Origin: Lactobacillus johnsonii
GTDB taxonomy: Bacteria; Bacillota; Bacilli; Lactobacillales; Lactobacillaceae
DNA: 64,000 nucleotides
Assembly (NCBI RefSeq): GCF_014058685.1
Contig: NZ_CP059055.1
Span: 992,001 to 1,056,000 of the forward strand
Direction of reading: 5' to 3'
Part shown: in pieces, positions 23,927 through 61,501 of the stretch
Layout of the letters: each line of letters opens with the position of its first letter
Numbering within the stretch: the stretch's first letter is position 1
Notes under the pieces: generated by a model
The model's input: the letters and a program-made list of their open reading frames with translations, nothing else
Told to the model about the DNA's origin: nothing
Database searches by the model: none
Position numbers and translations under genes: made by a program

Positions 23927-24337
23927 ATGAATGTCTTAATATTTAATAGCGTTAGTGAGAATATTAAGCGAGTGATTAATAAAAAGTGTGGATTAAACCT
24001 CTCTCAAACTCGCTTATTACTATTCTTTGATCATCATCAGAACGAGACTTTGACGATGGGAGAATTAGCACAGGCATTAAGTATATCTCTTTCGACCCTA
24101 AGTAGACAAATCAAGCAGAAAAAAACTGCTTCTTTAATTAAAGTAGAACGTTCAAAGAAGGATTCTAGCAAATCTTTAAATTTAAACAATGAAGGATTAG
24201 CTAAAGCCCAAGAATTAAAAAAAGTTCTTTCTCAAATTGAAGCACAAATTTTTTCTAGTTGGAGTGAAGAAAAAATACAGGATTTTGATAGTAAATTACA
24301 AATTATTGTTAATAACCTTGTAACAGATGAAGTATAA
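23927..24337 (+). CDS. MarR-family transcriptional regulator
   Basis: A 136-residue winged-helix repressor-type protein. The DNA-binding core is TMGELAQALSISLSTLSRQIKQ (recognition helix SLSTLSRQIKQ), followed by the wing and the typical terminal dimerisation helices. A GTG at 23915 is in frame, but AGGTGG (23913-23918) covers it. The ATG at 23927 has 8-base spacing and is the better start. The strong palindrome upstream suggests autoregulation. The ligand is unknown. Candidate targets are itself, rqcH and the downstream degV gene, from which it is separated by a 115-base gap with a hairpin leader. Confidence 0.85.
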   Translation: MNVLIFNSVSENIKRVINKKCGLNLSQTRLLLFFDHHQNETLTMGELAQALSISLSTLSRQIKQKKTASLIKVERSKKDSSKSLNLNNEGLAKAQELKKVLSQIEAQIFSSWSEEKIQDFDSKLQIIVNNLVTDEV

Positions 24338-24401
24338 ATCATCGATTATGTTTAAAAAACGTTGGATTTTATGATATAATTTCATTTTGATAAGTAGTAT
24401 T

Positions 24402-24423
24402 GCAGCATGCAACTTAATGCTGC
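24402..24423 (+). promoter_or_regulatory. Leader hairpin before second degV
   Basis: GCAGCAT-GCAACTTA-ATGCTGC is a perfect 7-bp stem in the leader of the degV gene, downstream of a TATAAT-like box (24375-24380). A loose T-rich tract follows (ATTTTAATTTTAAG), so it may be a weak attenuator or a 5' stabilising element. Confidence 0.35.
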
Positions 24424-24452
24424 CATTTTAATTTTAAGGTAGGTTTTCACAC

Positions 24453-25340
24453 GTGAAGATAGCACTCATTACAGATAGTACTAGTGATATAAGCCCAGAA
24501 GAAGCCAAGGCCAATGATATTACAGTAGTACCTATTCCGGTTATTATTGGAGATAAGCAATACATGGATGGGGTAGATATTACTGCAGAGAAGCTTTTTG
24601 AGCTAGAACGCGATGGAGCACCTTTTCCTAAGACTTCGCAGCCTAGTCCGGGTACTATGCTTGAATTATGCCAAAAATTGAAAAATGAAGGTTATGAAGC
24701 TATTATTGCTATTCCCTTAACATCTGGTATTTCTGGCTTTTATAACAGTTTAGTTACTTTAGCTCATAATCATCCTGAATTTAATCTTTATCCTTATGAT
24801 CCAGCAATGACCGTTCGTTCAATGGGAAATCTAGTGCTAGCAGCTGCTAAAATGATTAAAAATGGTTGGGAACCTAAAGAAATTCTATCTAAGTTAGACG
24901 AAATTAGAGATACAATTGATGTTCTTTTCGTTGTAGATGATTTAAATAACTTAGTGCGCGGCGGCCGTTTGAGTAATGCGAGTGCTTTTATTGGTACCAT
25001 GCTTCAAATTAAGCCACTTTTAACATTTAAAAAGGATGATTATCAAATCGTAAGTTTTGATAAAGTTCGTTCCATGAAGAGAGCTGTTAAGAAGGCTGAA
25101 AATATCACTATTGAGCGAATTAATAATTCGCCTATTAAGGATAAATTGTCATTAGCAGTTTATAATTCTAATGATTTAGAGCAGGCTACTAAGGTTAAAA
25201 ATGATTTTCAAGCTGCTTTCCCTAATATGACCATTAAAATGTTCAATTTTAGTTCCGTAATTGCTACCTATTTAGGAGAAAAATCTCTTGGTATTACTTG
25301 GATGGCAGACATAGATAAAATGGACTTTAGTAAAAAATAA
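24453..25340 (+). CDS. DegV family fatty-acid-binding protein (second copy)
   Basis: A 295-residue DegV/FakB protein. Motifs: KIALITDSTSDIS at the start, PKTSQPSPGTM for fatty-acid head-group binding, IPLTSGISGFYNS, and NLVRGGRLSNASAFIGTMLQIKPLL. The start codon is GTG with AAGGTAGG 9 bases upstream. Different loop residues from the copy at 13279-14202 (for example PSPG versus PSTG) suggest the two may prefer different acyl chains, a division known for FakB paralogues in other Firmicutes. Here that is inference. It has its own terminator. Confidence 0.92.
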   Translation: MKIALITDSTSDISPEEAKANDITVVPIPVIIGDKQYMDGVDITAEKLFELERDGAPFPKTSQPSPGTMLELCQKLKNEGYEAIIAIPLTSGISGFYNSLVTLAHNHPEFNLYPYDPAMTVRSMGNLVLAAAKMIKNGWEPKEILSKLDEIRDTIDVLFVVDDLNNLVRGGRLSNASAFIGTMLQIKPLLTFKKDDYQIVSFDKVRSMKRAVKKAENITIERINNSPIKDKLSLAVYNSNDLEQATKVKNDFQAAFPNMTIKMFNFSSVIATYLGEKSLGITWMADIDKMDFSKK

Positions 25341-25348
25341 TCATATCA

Positions 25349-25384
25349 AAAATAGGAGAGCTAAAGTTGCTTTCCTATTTTTTT
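25349..25384 (+). terminator. Terminator after second degV
   Basis: AAAATAGGA and TCCTATTTTTTT form the stem, with inner AGC/GCT pairs and a T-run after it. Confidence 0.82.
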
Positions 25385-25424
25385 AATAAAGTAAATTACA
25401 TGAACTTAAAACGAGAGTGATTAA

Positions 25425-26537
25425 ATGAAAAATAAGTTTTTAAAAATATTAGGACTAGTCGCTGGTATTGGTCTAGGACTGGTAATCGTTTTTCAAGTTA
25501 TATTAGCTATGAACACAAGTGCTATTAAAAGTAGTAGTCCTACCGCTGTTAATTCTGCTACAAGTAATAGTAGTGACAAAGAAATTATTGCAGAAGCACT
25601 CAATACCGATTTCAAAAGCTATAAATTTAATGTAAAGAATTCACCCGGAATTCAAGCTACAAGAACTTGGACTGGGGAATATCAAAATGATCCACTTAAG
25701 GCACAAGCTAAAGTTGATAAGACATCTATGTGGCTAAATGAAGACAAAGTATATCAAAAAATGTGGGATAATACTGGTAGTCCAAAGTGGAAAGCTTCTT
25801 CTACTATGACTCCTAATAAAGTAGTTAGCCAATTCGACCCAGCAATTATTTTAAGCGGAAGTAAAGCAATTAAAGGTGATATGAAACTTAAGAAATCTGG
25901 CTCTATCTATCGCGTTAGCTACAGTGGTAATAATCTAAAGTTCTGGAATAAGACCCACAGTAAGCTAATTAAAAAGCTTAAAGGTAATGCATCTGGATTA
26001 GATAATGAGGGAGCACTTAAAAGGTTAAAGGTTGAATATACCTTAAAAGAAAAGGGCGGCCACTTAGTCTTGACGAGCTTTTCATTCTACTTGCGTTTTG
26101 CTTATGCTGGATACGATATTTCTCAAGAGGGGACATATACAGAAATCAATGCAATTAAGGTAAGTACTCCAAAAGCATTGAGAGCTAAGACAGCCACAAA
26201 GAAGAGTCATAGAGTATACCATCCAAAAGCTGATGATAGTTTTGATATTGATATTGATTCTGGAAATTCAAATACTCAATCTAGTCAATCAAGTGAAAGT
26301 TCTTCAAGTAGTAGCCAACAATCTAGTTCATCGCAAAGTAGCAAATCAGAAGAACATAACGAGGAAAGTCAACATTCTCAAAGTCAAAGTAGTACATCAA
26401 CCCAATCCTCTGATAATAAAGAATCTAGTCAACAATCACAAGCCAATAATAGTAACAACAGCTCAGATACTAACCACAATAATCAAGGACGAGCACAAAA
26501 CAACCAACAATCTGCTGCTAGTCAGCAAAGTCATTAA
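25425..26537 (+). CDS. Secreted or membrane-anchored protein with Ser/Gln/Asn-rich tail
   Basis: A 370-residue protein of unknown function. An N-terminal hydrophobic segment (about 6-28, LKILGLVAGIGLGLVIVFQVIL) has no lipobox Cys, so it is an uncleaved anchor or signal peptide. Residues 50-245 form a globular basic domain rich in Lys, Trp and Tyr (RTWTGEYQNDP, KMWDNTGSPKWKAS). From about residue 275 the chain is almost wholly Ser, Gln and Asn, as in wall-spanning linkers. There is no LPXTG motif. The tail resembles in composition the tail of PBP1A in this window. It stands alone between two terminators. Confidence 0.75.
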   Translation: MKNKFLKILGLVAGIGLGLVIVFQVILAMNTSAIKSSSPTAVNSATSNSSDKEIIAEALNTDFKSYKFNVKNSPGIQATRTWTGEYQNDPLKAQAKVDKTSMWLNEDKVYQKMWDNTGSPKWKASSTMTPNKVVSQFDPAIILSGSKAIKGDMKLKKSGSIYRVSYSGNNLKFWNKTHSKLIKKLKGNASGLDNEGALKRLKVEYTLKEKGGHLVLTSFSFYLRFAYAGYDISQEGTYTEINAIKVSTPKALRAKTATKKSHRVYHPKADDSFDIDIDSGNSNTQSSQSSESSSSSSQQSSSSQSSKSEEHNEESQHSQSQSSTSTQSSDNKESSQQSQANNSNNSSDTNHNNQGRAQNNQQSAASQQSH

Positions 26538-26539
26538 TT

Positions 26540-26585
26540 AAAAAACGATTTGAAAATCTTTTTTAGATCTTCAAATCGTTTTTTA
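26540..26585. terminator. Bidirectional terminator
   Basis: AAAAAACGATTTGAA and TTCAAATCGTTTTTT form a 15-bp perfect stem. It lies between the convergent secreted-protein gene and the LysR gene. Confidence 0.92.
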
Positions 26586-26593
26586 TGTATAAA

Positions 26594-27475
26594 TTAATTT
26601 TTGCTTTTTATAGAATCTCGTATCAGTTTAAGAAATAGACTTGCAACATTTGATAGTTGATTTCTTGAACTCCAAATCAAACGATTATGGTCAATAATTT
26701 TAGGCTCAAGTGGTAAAAAGCATAAATTACTCTTATCTAAAGGAAGCAAATCTTTATATATCAATAGGCAATAAGGTCCCTTGTCTACGAGATACTGCAA
26801 ATTATCAGGTAAGTTAAATGTAGCCACGATATTTAACTTTTGTGGCTCAGTATACCAATCTCTAAAGTTATCAGAATCAGCCGTATGTTTTGACATAATG
26901 ACAGGATAATTTTGTAAATCTTCGGCAGTAACACAGGAATGATCAGCTAATGGGTGATTTTTACTTACAATCACACCATATTCATTAATTTCAGGAAGGG
27001 TCAGACTATTAAAATTTTGAGTAGTATCATATTGGCCCATTGTAATTCCAAAGTCTAATAGTCCGCGCTCAAGCTTGCTTTCAATCATGGATGAATTTCC
27101 ATTAAAGAAGTGAATCTTCACTTGAGGATAGTTCTGTAAAATTTGATGGATAATATCCATTACACGTTTAGTTGCAATACTTTCTCCTGCTCCGATGTAT
27201 AATTCACCAGATATAATTTGAGAGCGTTTTAGATTTTGTTGTGTTTTATTGGTCAAAGAAATTATTTCTTCTGCATGTTCCTGAAGATAATATCCTTCTT
27301 GAGTAAGAGTAATTTCCTGATGTCCACGATAAAACAAAGTTACGCCAAGTTCAGCCTCTAAATTTTTCAATTGGCGTGAAAGCGATGGTTGACTAATATG
27401 AAGAGCTTCAGCTGCCTTTGATATATTTTTTGCTTCACAAACCGCAAGAAAATATCTTAAAACTCTTAATTCCAT
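26594..27475 (-). CDS. LysR-family transcriptional regulator
   Basis: A 293-residue LysR-type regulator. The N-terminal winged HTH reads LRYFLAVCEAKNISKAAEALHISQPSLSRQLKNLEAELG, followed by a linker helix and the periplasmic-binding-like effector domain from about residue 90. The effector and target are unknown. The start is an ATG after GGAAGGAA. It lies 70 bases downstream of xerS on the same strand and could be read from the xerS transcript, but no direct link in function is implied. Confidence 0.9.
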   Translation of the reverse strand: MELRVLRYFLAVCEAKNISKAAEALHISQPSLSRQLKNLEAELGVTLFYRGHQEITLTQEGYYLQEHAEEIISLTNKTQQNLKRSQIISGELYIGAGESIATKRVMDIIHQILQNYPQVKIHFFNGNSSMIESKLERGLLDFGITMGQYDTTQNFNSLTLPEINEYGVIVSKNHPLADHSCVTAEDLQNYPVIMSKHTADSDNFRDWYTEPQKLNIVATFNLPDNLQYLVDKGPYCLLIYKDLLPLDKSNLCFLPLEPKIIDHNRLIWSSRNQLSNVASLFLKLIRDSIKSKN

Positions 27476-27545
27476 GAAGTGTTCCTTCCTTTTTACATAA
27501 AGTATACACTTTTATTATAGGCTAAATAATGAGATTAGAGTTGAA

Positions 27546-28616
27546 TTAATCAGAAGATTTATATCTATTTATTTTATTTAGTGCCGCTTTTTGTTTTTTT
27601 TGATCTACATGAGTATATAAATCAGTAGCTGTTGTTCCTTTCTGACCCAATTGCTGTGCTACTAACACTTGATCCTTAGTTACTTCATAAAGTTCACTAG
27701 CTAGCGTATGGCGTAACTTATGGGGAGTAAGAGGTTTCCCAAAAGCTGCAGAATACTTGTTAACCATTTTCTCAACTGCATTAGTGGTTATCCTTTTAGT
27801 CTTTCCATGCCATCTAGTTAAAAAGAAAGCAATATCTTCTTTTTCAGCATGATAATGATCGGCACGTATTTCCCTATATTTCTTTAAATAAGGAATCGTC
27901 CATTCAGCAATGGGAACACTATCTTTTTGACCACCTTTGCGTGTAACATCCAGCATAGCATCTTTTAAATTAATATTACGCATATTTACGCCAACACATT
28001 CAGAAACTCTAATTCCAGTTCCTAAAATCAATGCAATAATCGCCATATCTCGCTCGTGATTCTTTTTAAAGGCAGGTAGGGACTGCTTATTACATTTATG
28101 TATATATTCATTTTCAATAAAATCTAAGAATTGGTACTTTAAATCTCCCATATACATATGTGACTCTAAAACATGAGCTCTATAATTTAATGTCTTAGTG
28201 TCATTTAATGAATTGATTTTTAACATGACATTACGGTCAAAATATGGTTCACCATGATTATTGTCAGAAGTAATCGTTAAGAACTTATAGAGGGAGCGTA
28301 GAGCATTAATAGAACGATTAATGGTAGTTGGCGAATTTAAGCGACCTTGTTGATTTTTAGTATGTTTAAGATGATGAATGTACAGCATAACATCATTTCT
28401 TTGTAGATTTTCCAACGTCGTTACTTCAATCTCTTTATTAGAAGAAACTGAAGCAATATTATTTTGTCTTAGCCAGTCGAAAAAACGTCGAATTTCAGTT
28501 AAATATTGATAGGTTGTAGTTAATGAATGAGAAGTTCCTAGATTGTATTCCTTTACAAAATCTGGCATATTAGCCAATTCTTGCTTAATAAGTTCTAAGT
28601 ATTTATTAGTTTCCAA
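27546..28616 (-). CDS. xerS: XerS-type tyrosine recombinase
   Basis: A 356-residue single-protein Xer recombinase. Length and many blocks match streptococcal/lactococcal XerS (GEPYFDRNVM, KNHERDMAIIALILGTGIR, DVTRKGGQKDSVP, TPHKLRHTLASELYE). It should resolve chromosome dimers at dif during division. Catalytic residues: Arg203, Lys227, His299, Arg302, Tyr334. The position normally His in the L-G-H motif is Gln325 (QQLGQKGTT), which is odd. The start is TTG with GGAG 8 bases upstream. Its place at the gene-direction switch next to a gene-free stretch with a dif-like palindrome supports a terminus role. Confidence 0.9.
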   Translation of the reverse strand: METNKYLELIKQELANMPDFVKEYNLGTSHSLTTTYQYLTEIRRFFDWLRQNNIASVSSNKEIEVTTLENLQRNDVMLYIHHLKHTKNQQGRLNSPTTINRSINALRSLYKFLTITSDNNHGEPYFDRNVMLKINSLNDTKTLNYRAHVLESHMYMGDLKYQFLDFIENEYIHKCNKQSLPAFKKNHERDMAIIALILGTGIRVSECVGVNMRNINLKDAMLDVTRKGGQKDSVPIAEWTIPYLKKYREIRADHYHAEKEDIAFFLTRWHGKTKRITTNAVEKMVNKYSAAFGKPLTPHKLRHTLASELYEVTKDQVLVAQQLGQKGTTATDLYTHVDQKKQKAALNKINRYKSSD

Positions 28617-55082: not shown

Positions 55083-56261
55083 ATTGTAAAATTAAATTGA
55101 ACACTTGATAAAAAATAAAAAGTCCATTCGGACCTGTTTGATAGAATGTTAATAACCACAAAAACTTTCTATTGGAGGTCAAAATGGACTCTTTACATTC
55201 TACCATGAACCAGCACGTTAAAGGCAAGCATTTATCATTTGAAGAGCGAGTTATTATTCAATTGCGTTTGAAAGATGGCTATTCTTTGCGTGCAATTGCC
55301 CGTGAACTTAACTGTTCTCCTTCTACTATCAGCTATGAGGTTAAGCGTGGCACTGTAAAACTGTATCATGGTAAAGTCAAAAAATATAAGGCTACTCAAG
55401 GGCATGATGCATATAAAGCTCATCGTAAAAATTGTGGGCGCAAATCAGACTTTCTCAGGAAAGCTCAATTCATGCGCTATGTCCACAAGCATTTTTTTAA
55501 AGATGGCTGGTCGCTTGATGTGTGCAGTAATCGTGCTACTGCTGTTGGCGAATTCGCTAGCAGCGATGTTGTCTGCACCAAAACTCTTTATAATTACGTT
55601 GATCAAGGCTTATTAGGAATTTATAATTACGACTTGCCAGAGAAGCTTAAACGCAATACTAAGCTTCATCGTATTCGCAAAAATAAGAAAAAACTTGGCA
55701 GAAGCATTGAAGAACGTCCTAAAGAGATCAATAAACGTAATGAATTCGGTCATTGGGAATGCGATTTAGTTCTCGGACATAAGAGCAAAGATGATGAGGT
55801 ACTGCTAACCTTATCTGAGCGTATGAGTCGTGAGTTTTTAATTCTTCGTATTCCTGACAAGACTTCTGTCAGTGTCATGCAGGCCTTTAAAGAACTCCAA
55901 AGGCAATACAGCGAACATTGGAATGATATTTTTAAAACCATTACCACTGATAATGGCTCAGAGTTTGCAGATCTTTCCAACCTAGAAAAAGTATCCAATA
56001 CACTGGTTTACTATGCCCATCCTTACACTTCTTGTGATAAGGGAACAGTTGAAAGACACAATGGTCTTATTCGCAGATTCATTCCTAAGGGAGAAGCAAT
56101 AGCTAACTATTCTTTACAAGACATCATTAATATTGAAACCTGGTGCAATTCTTTGCCAAGAAAGATACTGGCCTATCATACACCAGATGAAATCTTTGAA
56201 AGAGAATTAGATCTAATCTATCAAGCAGCTTAACTAAAAGTGTTCAATTTATTATTGCAAT
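55083..56261 (+). mobile_element. IS30-family insertion sequence
   Basis: About 1.18 kb. The left inverted repeat begins at 55083 and the right ends at 56261. Both, read inward, are ATTG-Y-AA-W-A-W-TAAATTGAACACTT (24 bp, 3 differences). The ends enclose one transposase gene. A 13-bp direct repeat TATTTTATTTAAT lies 5 bp outside each end (55065-55077 and 56267-56279), but no perfect short target duplication abuts the ends. The element looks intact. Confidence 0.92.
55184..56233 (+). CDS. IS30-family transposase
   Basis: A 349-residue DDE transposase. The N-terminal HTH reads LSFEERVIIQLRLKDGYSLRAIARELNCSPSTISYEVKRG. The catalytic triad is visible: Asp in GHWECDLVLG, Asp in TITTDNGSEF, and Glu in CDKGTVERHNGLIRRFIPKGE, the IS30 hallmark. 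The ATG follows GGAGGTCAAA. Full length and uninterrupted, so probably active. Confidence 0.95.
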   Translation: MDSLHSTMNQHVKGKHLSFEERVIIQLRLKDGYSLRAIARELNCSPSTISYEVKRGTVKLYHGKVKKYKATQGHDAYKAHRKNCGRKSDFLRKAQFMRYVHKHFFKDGWSLDVCSNRATAVGEFASSDVVCTKTLYNYVDQGLLGIYNYDLPEKLKRNTKLHRIRKNKKKLGRSIEERPKEINKRNEFGHWECDLVLGHKSKDDEVLLTLSERMSREFLILRIPDKTSVSVMQAFKELQRQYSEHWNDIFKTITTDNGSEFADLSNLEKVSNTLVYYAHPYTSCDKGTVERHNGLIRRFIPKGEAIANYSLQDIINIETWCNSLPRKILAYHTPDEIFERELDLIYQAA

Positions 56262-58780: not shown

Positions 58781-58949
58781 TTTATTTCCTTCTTTATCAT
58801 TTCTATAATTTACATCTATATATTATAGGAAACTTTTTACTCAGTTGTTAAATTATCGTTTTTAACACATATTTATGTGGAGTTTTCTCTATTACAGTTT
58901 ATAGCTATTGTTTACTGCTCCTTACCCGATCTTTCTAAAGTGGAAAAAT

Positions 58950-58998
58950 GTTATAAAAAGTTATAAAATTAAATAAAAGTTATAAAAAGTTATAAAAA
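58950..58998 (+). repeat. Phased decamer array 1 before the AAA ATPase gene
   Basis: Four copies of GTTATAAAA start at 58950, 58960, 58979 and 58989. They form two pairs with a 10-base period, offset by 19. The array ends directly before the ribosome binding site GAGGTG of the ATPase gene. The 10-bp phase puts all sites on the same face of the helix, as for cooperative binding by a multimeric protein. Confidence 0.85.
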
Positions 58999-59011
58999 GA
59001 GGTGTAACTAA

Positions 59012-60095
59012 ATGGAAAATCCTTTTAATCCTAGTTTTGGAAAAATGCCCAGTGTTTTCTTAAATCGTGATTCATTAACTCAACGTATAGTTACTGAATT
59101 GAACCGAGTGGGATCGCCTTTTCAAACATCCCTTCTTTACGGGCAACGTGGTTCGGGAAAAACTACATTGATGACAGAAGTTTCTAATTTAATAAGTAAA
59201 GATAAAAATTGGTTAGTAATCAATTTAGTTCTAGATGATGATCTCTTAATCTCCCTAATAAATCAATTACAACGACATCTTCTTAACTTGAAGATTATAA
59301 AAAATATCGACCTAAAGATGAACTTCTTTGGACTAGATATGAGTGCTAGTTTCCATCAACAGGCTGAATCTAATTTTCAATTATTATTCCAAGATGCCTT
59401 AGAGAAACTAACAAAAAAAGGGTTTCATGTTTTAATTAACATTGACGAAGTACATTTAACACCATTATTAAAAAAATTTGCTAGTTGTTATCAAATTATG
59501 ATTCGAAACAATCTTAATGTTTCTTTACTTATGGCAGGTTTACCAGAAAATGTTTCAGAAATCCAAAATGATGATGTTCTTACCTTTTTATTGCGTGCCA
59601 ATCGAATCGTTTTGAATCCTTTAGATATTGAAAGTATAAAAAATAGTTATCAGCACATTTTTAGTAAAGCTAGCTATACATTTTCGACTGAAACTCTTTT
59701 ATATATGACTAAACAAACTCAAGGATTTGCTTACGCTTTTCAATTATTGGGCTATCATTCATTCCTCCAATAAGACGATTTCTATATCTGATATAAACAA
59801 CATCTTAGACATCTATATTAGTGAATTAAATAGAAATGTTTACTTCAAAGTTTATAGTGACATGTCTGAACGTGAAAAAGAATTCGTACAAGCTATGGTT
59901 AAATCTAAGCAACACAAGGTTAAAAGTCAGGTTATTGGTAATCTTATGGAAAAAGGACCTAATTACATTGCTGTCTATCGCCGGAAATTAATTGATGACC
60001 AAATTATTAAACCGAATGGTTATGGCTATGTTAGCTTTTTGTTACCTTACTTCGATAAATTCGTTGAACAAGAGATGATTTTAGATGAATTTTAA
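59012..60095 (+). pseudogene. AAA+/winged-helix ATPase, frameshifted
   Basis: Two reading frames (59012-59773 and the frame continuing to 60095) together match the intact ATPase at 60422-61501 along its length. Part 1 has the N-terminal ENPFNPSFGKMP, Walker A YGQRGSGKTTLM, Walker B VLINIDEVHL, and QTQGFAYAFQLLG. Part 2 has the C-terminal winged-helix region (KSQVIGNLMEKGPNYIAVYRRKL). The frame breaks at a tandem ATTCATTC (59757-59764). Removing one ATTC restores an open frame of about 360 codons. It may be a recent pseudogene or a phase-variable gene. Confidence 0.85.
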
Positions 60096-60157
60096 AATTA
60101 ATCTAGAACTTTTTAGTTTCTCTCTTTCTTATCCCTCATGATTTAACTAAATATAAA

Positions 60158-60210
60158 TAAAATGAGCAATAGCTTTCCTACAGTTCATATAGAAACTATT
60201 ACTCATTTTA
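60158..60210 (+). terminator. Terminator after the first ATPase gene
   Basis: AAATGAG-AATAG-TTTC and GAAA-TATT-CTCATTT halves pair with two mismatches, followed by TTTATTTT. Confidence 0.65.
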
Positions 60211-60224
60211 TTTTACATTCATAT

Positions 60225-60380
60225 CTAAGCTTGCTTTAGTGCTTTATATACTTCAGTCGCAAAAGATAAAATCCTATCAACATTAATGCACTTATGCAAA
60301 ACAATTCTAGAATCACCTAAAAAGTATAATGAAGTATAAAATTGTGCCGCAAAGTATAATGAAGTATAATGAAGTATAAA
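60225..60380 (-). pseudogene. Possible 3' remnant of a minus-strand gene
   Basis: Read on the minus strand, the frame ending with TAG at 60225 gives FLGDSRIVLHKCINVDRIL and continues SFATEVYKALKQA. Its composition looks like a protein C-terminus. Upstream it runs into the decamer array, whose repeats read FYTSLYF, until a stop. It has no start or ribosome binding site. It may be the tail of a gene displaced when the array formed. I do not recognise the family. Confidence 0.3.
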
Positions 60381-60410
60381 ATCATGCCGCAAAGTATAAT
60401 GAAGTATAAT
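60321..60410 (+). repeat. Phased decamer array 2 before the intact AAA ATPase gene
   Basis: Nine decamers in strict 10-base register. Seven contain AAGTATAA (starting at 60322, 60332, 60352, 60362, 60372, 60392, 60402). Two, at 60341 and 60381, are spacers of the type AT-NN-TGCCGC. The order is A A x A A A x A A. Five of the seven include a perfect TATAAT. The array ends one base before GAGG of the ATPase gene, the same geometry as array 1, but with a different unit. Confidence 0.9.
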
Positions 60411-60421
60411 GAGGTTTTAAA

Positions 60422-61501
60422 ATGTACAGTGAAAATCCATTTGATGCGGAATTCGGTGGAATTCCTGAACTATATCTTGATTTTAATAATGATGCTGTCA
60501 AATATGCTAAAAGAGCACACCGTTACAAAAAACATCCCACTTACTCACTTTTTATTACTGGTGTTCGTGGTTCAGGTAAAACAGTTTTTATGAACAAAGT
60601 TGGCAAAGAACTTAATAAATATGATGATACAATCGTAGTAACTCTTCATAATACTGAAGATTTATTTCGTATAATGTACATTAAGCTAGCCCCAATGCTT
60701 AACAAATTAAAAAAGTGGTCTTCGTCTGTTTCAATTAACTTACCATTCGTTTCTATAAATTTTGCTGAGGCAAATGAAAAACATGATGAAATCTACTATA
60801 AAACTGAAATTACTAAAATTTTAAAATTATTGAAACAAGCTAACATGCGAGTCGTATTTTGTATTGATGAAGTTTCTAATACACCAGCAATTCAAAAATT
60901 AGCTGAAGAATTTAATAATTGGAGCTTAAGTGAACTGCAAGTTTCTGTTATCATGACTGGATTGTTGAAGGAAGTGGCGGAACTTTCTAGTTCGCATAAT
61001 TTAACTTTTTTAGTACGCGCTGATAGGTTTCACGTTAATAAATTGCAAAAATTATCAATTGCTCAAGCGTATATTAAAGTATTTGACATTACAAGTGACC
61101 AAGCTGAAGAAATGGCCGAGATGACACAAGGTTATGCTTATGCTTTTCAATTAATTGGCGATTTGATGTATGAAGAGCTATCTACTGGTAAAAATTTTGA
61201 AGAATCCTGGAATTATACTAAGTTAGCTTTTAAAGATACGCTTTTCAATCAAGCGTATGATGTCATCTCACATGAATTAACAGAAATTGATTTTCAATTT
61301 CTCTACGAGATGTCAAAAAATAATAATATTAGTGCAATTATTGAAAAAATGGGTAAAAGCAAGCAATACGTAAATATGTATCGTACTAAGCTAATTAAAT
61401 ATAATTTAATCAAAACAATCATTCGCGGTAAATTAGGATTCACCCTACCTTTATTTAGGGAATTTATCCAAGCAAAATATGATGAATTAAATTGGGGATA
61501 A
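60422..61501 (+). CDS. AAA+ ATPase with C-terminal winged helix
   Basis: A 359-residue P-loop ATPase. N-terminal signature YSENPFDAEFGGIPELYLD, Walker A ITGVRGSGKTVFM (about 46-57), Walker B VVFCIDEVSN (about 144-153), sensor-like SVIMTGLLKE, and LVRADRFHVNKLQKL. After the AAA lid comes TQGYAYAFQLIGDLMYEE and a C-terminal winged-helix-like domain (about 285-350). The architecture recalls archaeal-type ATPases and Orc1/Cdc6-like proteins: an ATPase plus a DNA-binding domain. Its own decamer array is the obvious candidate site. It is a paralogue of the frameshifted gene upstream. Function is unknown. Confidence 0.85.
   Translation: MYSENPFDAEFGGIPELYLDFNNDAVKYAKRAHRYKKHPTYSLFITGVRGSGKTVFMNKVGKELNKYDDTIVVTLHNTEDLFRIMYIKLAPMLNKLKKWSSSVSINLPFVSINFAEANEKHDEIYYKTEITKILKLLKQANMRVVFCIDEVSNTPAIQKLAEEFNNWSLSELQVSVIMTGLLKEVAELSSSHNLTFLVRADRFHVNKLQKLSIAQAYIKVFDITSDQAEEMAEMTQGYAYAFQLIGDLMYEELSTGKNFEESWNYTKLAFKDTLFNQAYDVISHELTEIDFQFLYEMSKNNNISAIIEKMGKSKQYVNMYRTKLIKYNLIKTIIRGKLGFTLPLFREFIQAKYDELNWG

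Follow-up and report, generated by a model that had tools for sequence, protein, structure and literature searches.

The 64-kb stretch of the 1.95-Mb Lactobacillus johnsonii chromosome analysed here (NZ_CP059055.1, positions 992,001 to 1,056,000; the whole stretch is referred to as the window) carries two adjoining ATPase genes on the forward strand, gene 1 (start at 59012) and gene 2 (start at 60422), each preceded by direct repeats of a short unit of its own. The encoded proteins, described as related ATPases in the initial annotation, were confirmed as such: they share approximately 30% identity, an NPF..FG..P start and the motifs GxRGSGKT, IDEV and QG(F/Y)AYAFQL. Gene 2 (60422..61501) was found intact and encodes a 359-residue protein, assigned from the family alignment, profile matches and a structure model as a STAND/AAA-type ATPase with a C-terminal winged helix. 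Gene 1, by contrast, did not prove intact. It is frameshifted in the window, as judged from the open reading frame (ORF) translations and intact relatives: the frame encoding the ATPase part (253 amino acids, 59012..59773, forward strand) stops at 59773, and the winged-helix part continues in a different frame of 122 amino acids (59727..60095, forward strand), overlapping the first at 59727–59773. At least three relatives keep gene 1 as one intact 366-residue frame, and the break is probably recent, because the array upstream of it is still intact. A third, intact paralogue lies elsewhere in the L. johnsonii genome (gene match 583625–584689) and has an array of its own with the unit AGTATAAAAT.

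Unit chains were scored in the 150 bases upstream of each gene and compared with 2000 dinucleotide shuffles of the same bases. Array 1 (58950..58998, forward strand) consists of four direct units GTTATAAAA(A/T) starting at 58950, 58960, 58979 and 58989, and its end adjoins the ribosome binding site of gene 1. Array 2 (60322..60411, forward strand) comprises seven direct units AAGTATAA(TG/AA) on a nine-slot grid of 10 bp, starting at 60322, 60332, 60352, 60362, 60372, 60392 and 60402, with non-unit sequence in the slots 60342–60351 and 60382–60391. The chain scores were 6.4 and 11.2, respectively, versus shuffle maxima of 6.2 and 6.6, so that none of the 2000 shuffles reached either score; the best four of 852 tiles covering the window all fell on these two arrays, the sole strong ones there. 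The differing units and their numbers, four copies against seven in nine slots, thus stand as initially annotated, and the 10-bp register claimed for both arrays holds for array 2 (spacing 10-20-10-10-20-10) but not for array 1, the units of which are spaced 10-19-10.

STAND nucleoside triphosphatases are defined by Walker A and Walker B (D-D/E) motifs, a GxP motif following the sensor region, an NLR-like domain order and C-terminal sensor repeats. Across the family, G47, R49, G52, K53, T54 and D149 are invariant and E150 is present in at least 90% of the members; G237 is also invariant; the motif around it reads GYP in 8 of 9 actinobacterial rows of alignment A1, whereas almost all lactobacilli, gene 2 among them, have GYA, GFA or GYS. 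The domains follow in the NLR-like order nucleotide-binding, helical and winged-helix. No superstructure-forming sensor repeats were found C-terminally by Pfam or in the model, the protein stopping after the winged helix, and for this reason it is termed a minimal STAND-like core. The gene 2 model, with a predicted local distance difference test score of 91, allows the protein to be assigned with confidence as a STAND/Orc-like ATPase plus winged helix. With Pfam ATPase_2 (PF01637; gathering threshold 33.2 bits), gene 2 (24.4 bits) and gene 1 (27.7 bits) remained below the cut-off and the third paralogue (42.5 bits) passed it; the NB-ARC match of the gene 1 fragment (15.5 bits) was likewise below cut-off. 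Five proteins of the family were searched against two further libraries, one of the queries (L174:2345-3391) having both its ends set approximately 12 codons too early. The PADLOC defence models gave weak matches, mostly to the P-loop (best E value 3.3e-6), and the phage protein library gave no clear assignment, the best match being PHROG 6841 of unknown function.

Distribution of the family and its arrays

The alignment of homologous upstream regions proposed with the initial annotation was carried out. Starting from 237 matching frames, 195 with a start were retained, and 125 remained after proteins that were identical, or that had identical last 60 upstream bases, had been dropped; the set includes many related sequences and a few truncated or broken copies. 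Unit finding allowed spacings of 9–11 and 18–21 bp, and the shuffle p value had a floor of 0.02. A unit chain with p < 0.05 was present in 109 of the 125 homologues, which belong to Bacillota, Actinomycetota and Spirochaetota. Chain scores of at least 6 were obtained for 88 of the 125, whereas 11 of 400 controls, sampled from a pool of 511 upstream regions, scored as high; six control scores were 6.5 or higher, five of them being family arrays read on the opposite strand and one a separate repeat ahead of a methylase gene. Self-similarity at a lag of 9–11 bp was significant (p ≤ 0.05) in 95/123 homologues versus 15/250 controls, and the best lag was 29 bp in 54/123 versus 7/250. Among nine held-out stretches obtained after the main analysis, one of which contains fragments only, all three core-family genes scored by the script had 7–8 units (p = 0.01), and a fourth array was recognised by eye.

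Unit spacings peaked at 10 bp (225) and 19 bp (98). The commonest layout was 10-19-10(-19-10), that is, pairs 10 bp apart recurring each 29 bp; other subfamilies have 9-18-9, 11-20/21-11 or, as gene 2, 10-20-10-10-20-10. The units themselves are specific to subfamilies, for example ACAGTAAAG, AGTATGAAA, GTTCTAAAA, AATGCAAAA and GTTGTCAAG, and those of GC-rich Actinomycetota include GACTCACAGG, TTTCACC and GACTCACA.

Tandem unit pairs of the window arrays, of the third array and of one unit from another subfamily were used as search patterns to assess how private the arrays are. Pairs of array 1 occurred twice genome-wide, both times within array 1, and pairs of array 2 and the third array occurred seven times, in every case ahead of their cognate genes. 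Reversed-pattern controls for these three arrays gave no matches in their own genome. For the unit of the other subfamily, 11/11 matches, in 6 of 10 genomes, lay ahead of the cognate ATPase gene, with two matches for the reversed control.

Family matches were found in 31 of 75 genomes of the genus Lactobacillus and in 12 of 295 genomes of the order, nine of the 12 within the genus. Some match was present in 150 of 398 genomes of a Bacillota sample, where most of the matches listed cover the P-loop part only; at least six genomes outside the genus have full-length matches. A scan of 84,980 species genomes returned 407 stretches encoding relatives, of which 80 were kept, originating from lactobacilli, Lachnospiraceae, Erysipelotrichaceae, Acholeplasmatales, Coriobacteriaceae, Alloscardovia, Treponema, streptococci and others. 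Distant relatives are also encoded on nine phage-like contigs; those on the viral contigs L184, L185, L187 and L188 have approximately 20% identity and are accompanied by repeats of lesser length and regularity (TAAGGT in L184, for example).

Covariation of unit letters and winged-helix residues

In the gene 2 model, the recognition helix spans residues 314–326 (61361..61399, forward strand) and the wing residues 330–340 (61409..61441, forward strand). Residues of these two predicted elements and the letters of the unit change together across the family. For this comparison, 90 of the 125 homologues (p < 0.03, at least four units, near full length) were registered on a nine-base unit; residue–base counts were made on 88, after removal of L009 and L011, the units of which were out of phase with those of close relatives. 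Among all residue–unit pairs, the highest corrected mutual information was obtained for residue 335 with unit position 1 (z = 7.3), followed by residue 314 with position 2 (z = 5.1). Lys or Arg at residue 314 accompanied 24 of 27 units with G at position 2, compared with 1 of 61 without it, and Tyr335 accompanied 27 of 30 units with G at position 1, compared with 11 of 55 with A. Residues 318–319 paired with position 4 as NP with G (11/11), AQ with T (9/9) and SQ with C (8/10).

Co-change was then ranked over 342 alignment columns, using a tree calculated from the ATPase part alone. For position 1, residue 335 ranked first and residue 314 second; for position 3, residue 338 ranked first and residue 318 fourth; for position 4, residues 319 and 318 ranked second and third. 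By the two approaches, residues 314, 318 and 319 of the predicted helix covary with positions 2 (and 1), 3–4 and 4, respectively, and residues 335 and 338 of the predicted wing with positions 1 and 3. Together with the arrays found in 109 of 125 homologues, this covariation supports, at the level of sequence comparison, the proposal of the initial annotation that each ATPase binds its own array and that proteins and sites diverged together.

The unit number varies between close relatives (seven versus six units in gene 2 orthologues), as it would if the repeats were AT-rich slippage products devoid of a binding role. This explanation is hardly credible, since unit letters covary with predicted DNA-contact residues, unit pairs are private to their cognate genes in the genomes searched and arrays also occur in GC-rich Actinomycetota (e.g. 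GACTCACA). It is further opposed by the gene 2 orthologue of L010 (G023:C32), which is broken by a stop and has an array cut down to approximately one unit; from this case, array and gene seem to decay together.

Array position and the proposed regulation

Sites of the form TTGNNN, 16–18 bp,.A...T were detected in 68 of 123 upstream regions, compared with 26.9 expected. The spacer measured 17 bp in 48 of these 68 sites, and the -10 element started at a unit in 53 and at the second unit in 36. Unit pairs were aligned counting only exact 10-bp pairs (68/90 first and 69/87 later pairs), whereupon a TTG stood nine bases ahead of unit 1 in 23/68 first pairs versus 6/69 later pairs, and unit 2 with the next base read TAAAAT in the aligned first pairs. 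A TTG nine bases before unit 1 and TAAAAT at unit 2 together yield a 17-bp spacer. In members with this geometry, unit 1 would fill the spacer and unit 2 form the -10 box, and the leader transcript would contain the later pairs. Of the two window genes, the predicted gene 1 promoter (58941..58969, forward strand; TGGAAA, 17 bp, TAAAAT; 9/12 consensus matches) has its -10 within unit 2. The predicted gene 2 promoter (60342..60370, forward strand) combines TTGTGC in the third, non-unit slot, a -35 with 3/6 matches, with a 17-bp spacer and a TATAAT inside a unit; this site was picked both for gene 2 itself (L095) and for its orthologue L007, and was missed by a stricter scan.

The position of the later unit pairs, downstream of the predicted transcription start and ending near the ribosome binding site, would also suit an array that acts as RNA, the protein recognising the leader repeats and so controlling translation or attenuation. 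In members with a clear promoter, however, units 1 and 2 lie in the spacer and the -10 box and should be untranscribed, yet they share the unit consensus, and the covarying residues sit in a recognition helix and wing of the DNA-binding type; an RNA role is therefore considered very improbable.

The same geometry bears on the direction of regulation. Were the protein to activate its own promoter from the array, in the manner of a positive feedback switch of MerR-type or STAND activators, the poor consensus matches of many -35 elements in the family would be accounted for, and precedents exist: AfsR, a STAND regulator, exerts activation via direct repeats that overlap the -35 (PMC10936776), and IniR, a similar ATPase, binds and induces its target promoter (PMC5760070). 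Against activation stand the optimal 17-bp spacer of 48 of the 68 predicted promoters and the extension of the array over the -10 and the initially transcribed region, where a bound protein should block the polymerase, and activation is accordingly regarded as unlikely.

The interpretation that we consider probable is that of a solitary STAND-like ATPase which assembles on its own promoter via a private array and probably represses it. In this mechanism, a minimal STAND-like (NLR/Orc-like) ATPase would read, by its C-terminal winged helix, a private direct repeat of 9–11 bp in its own promoter region. Protomers would line up head to tail on the array, each occupying one unit, and form an ATP-controlled oligomer that would extend from the -35/-10 spacer over the -10 box to the transcript start and block polymerase, until a nucleotide-state signal releases or rebuilds it. 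Of the two functions offered by the initial annotation, autoregulator or partition- or origin-like complex, the former is preferred in view of the frequent overlap of the first unit pair with -35/-10 elements and of the privacy of unit pairs in the genomes searched, and the latter found no support (see below). Repression, as the form that autoregulation of the gene would take, is rated as likely. Since each paralogue has a different unit, no cross-regulation would be expected within one cell.

Several results weigh against this interpretation or restrict it. The preference for repression over activation follows from the array position alone. No promoter site of the above form was found in 55 of 123 upstream regions, and the predicted promoters of both window genes are weak; sites of the grade of the gene 1 promoter were not enriched (9 in the stretch versus 9.4 in shuffles), and the gene 1 call rests on the family-wide pattern. 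In the array test, 16 of the 125 homologues failed, including the long open frames L031 and L137 without an array; the failure of L173 is probably due to a 17-bp spacing outside the allowed set. None of four held-out members of a divergent NPYxPGAG-like clade passed, and of five phage-like relatives tested, four passed with 2–4 units only. The homologues are, moreover, not independent of each other. Co-change was also high in columns outside the winged helix (77, 157 and 168): residue 168 was the top column for position 4, and for position 2 residue 77 ranked first and residue 314 only fourth. Unit distances correlated at 0.34 with distances of the ATPase part and at 0.28 with those of the winged helix (partial correlations 0.24 and 0.12), so that the coupling was localised by the column-wise tests and not by whole-domain distances. 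In a shift test, the contact residues ranked fifth of 341 placements, the contact set (residues 312–320 and 333–339) having been chosen after the first results with the structure model as a guide.

A wider generalisation is more doubtful, though possible: that these genes represent a large class of elements consisting of a single gene, the NLR/Orc-like ATPase product of which forms an ATP-driven filament solely on its private promoter array, with a readable code between winged-helix residues and bases. If true, each paralogue would act as a DNA-bound switch that is orthogonal to the others and self-addressed, and that might serve as a sensor using its own promoter as assembly platform; NLR and Orc winged helices might have worked in this way ancestrally.

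Related systems, turnover and neighbourhood

Autoregulated DNA-binding proteins, initiator genes beside origin recognition box (ORB) repeats and repeat-binding plasmid proteins are known kinds. In haloarchaea, the Orc1/Cdc6 initiator gene lies beside its own specific ORB repeats, and paralogues have different repeats (PMC3528665). The family described here resembles this arrangement in fold, in the gene adjoining its own repeats and in the paralogue specificity of the repeats; it differs in that the ORBs are inverted and flank the AT-rich unwinding element of an origin, whereas here short direct repeats lie on the promoter of the gene. The ATPase could alternatively serve as an initiator or in partition, with the array as its origin- or centromere-like site and the overlap with the promoter being incidental. 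We regard this as improbable. The repeats are direct, lie on the coding strand and often extend over promoter elements, instead of being inverted on either side of an unwinding element (no search for such elements was made), and the Orc1/Cdc6 model TIGR02928 was not passed, with 12.5 and 14.4 bits being far under the cut-off of 181.3. At an E value of 1e-5, gene 2 matched few plasmid records (15 of 72,556) and no phage record, and the window copy is chromosomal. Three different arrays are present on the one chromosome. The GC skew turns from mostly positive to negative at window positions 24000–28000, which suggests that the replication terminus region lies within the window, and the gene pair is situated approximately 30–35 kb from this switch.

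StbA of plasmid R388 is comparable in that the promoter of its own gene is surrounded by 9-bp direct repeats, stbDR, to which it binds (PMC3098194). In the portion of that report at hand, StbA is not called an ATPase, and its repeats, unlike those of the family described here, are two bases apart, occur in sets of five, are also found at other plasmid promoters and are plasmid-borne.

MalT is a STAND transcription regulator tied to promoter DNA binding. The same applies to the STAND-type ATPases AfsR, which acts via direct repeats, and IniR (PMC10936776, PMC5760070). The three regulators differ from the present family in having further domains, including a separate DNA-binding domain, and in activating target promoters, whereas here the winged helix of the core itself would read the protein's own promoter. 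The archaeal STAND-like ATPases 2QEN (PABY2304) and 2FNA (SSO1545), of the Pfam family ATPase_2, have known structures; the identity is 14%. In contrast to the NLR/CED-4/Apaf-1 cores and NB-ARC, no effector or sensor domain was found here, and DNA appears to be read by the winged helix.

The initial annotation had named no system of this layout, and in the open-licence PubMed Central literature searched no description was seen of a family-wide, private and co-evolving promoter array of a solitary STAND-like ATPase, here spanning at least three phyla. To our knowledge, very many STAND/ATPase_2-type proteins are without a known ligand or role. For most members of this family, the sequence upstream of the gene itself reveals a predicted DNA ligand and thereby a testable target. 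The covariation provides a first residue-to-base code for the winged helix, with the help of which specificity could be predicted or exchanged. As NLR and Orc cores have the same fold, the family may also show an NLR-type winged helix as a DNA reader and ATP control of assembly on DNA.

Intact copies of gene 2 are, as far as substitution rates indicate, under strong constraint: dN (nonsynonymous divergence) was 0.13–0.17 with dS (synonymous divergence) near saturation, and dN/dS was approximately 0.05–0.09 in two comparisons, a third giving infinite dS. Broken copies comprise gene 1 in the window, the gene 2 orthologue in L010 and a deleted third paralogue in a relative. In the last case (L036:803-1175 compared with L038), the third paralogue's orthologue has an internal deletion, and a member of a different subfamily with its own array lies approximately 4 kb away; family members therefore seem to undergo turnover at this locus. 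Because the family occurs patchily, broken copies exist and intact ones are strongly constrained, a conflict-type or selfish role rather than a housekeeping one is our guess. No simple filled/empty pair for the window locus was present among the matches listed for the 75 genus genomes.

A multi-gene system is unlikely, because no neighbour recurs widely: the largest neighbour cluster, of ATP-binding cassette-like proteins, was found at 10 of 80 loci, and each of the remaining nine clusters of at least three loci covers 3–4 loci, several of them representing shared synteny of close relatives. A glutaminase-like neighbour, so assigned by appearance, is located near the ATPase gene in L108, L109, L131 and L151, which belong to two genera, and perhaps marks a shared insertion spot. 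In the window, the gene pair is preceded by an excinuclease-like gene, and upstream of the latter lies a transposase-like ORF of 353 amino acids (55172–56233), IS30-type by appearance. In L131, eight near-perfect 10-bp repeats GCGTTAAAAA (approximately 1368–1452) lie between a 448-residue ORF and a SpoU methylase gene; they are unrelated to the ATPase family and represent, perhaps, another protein with its own array.

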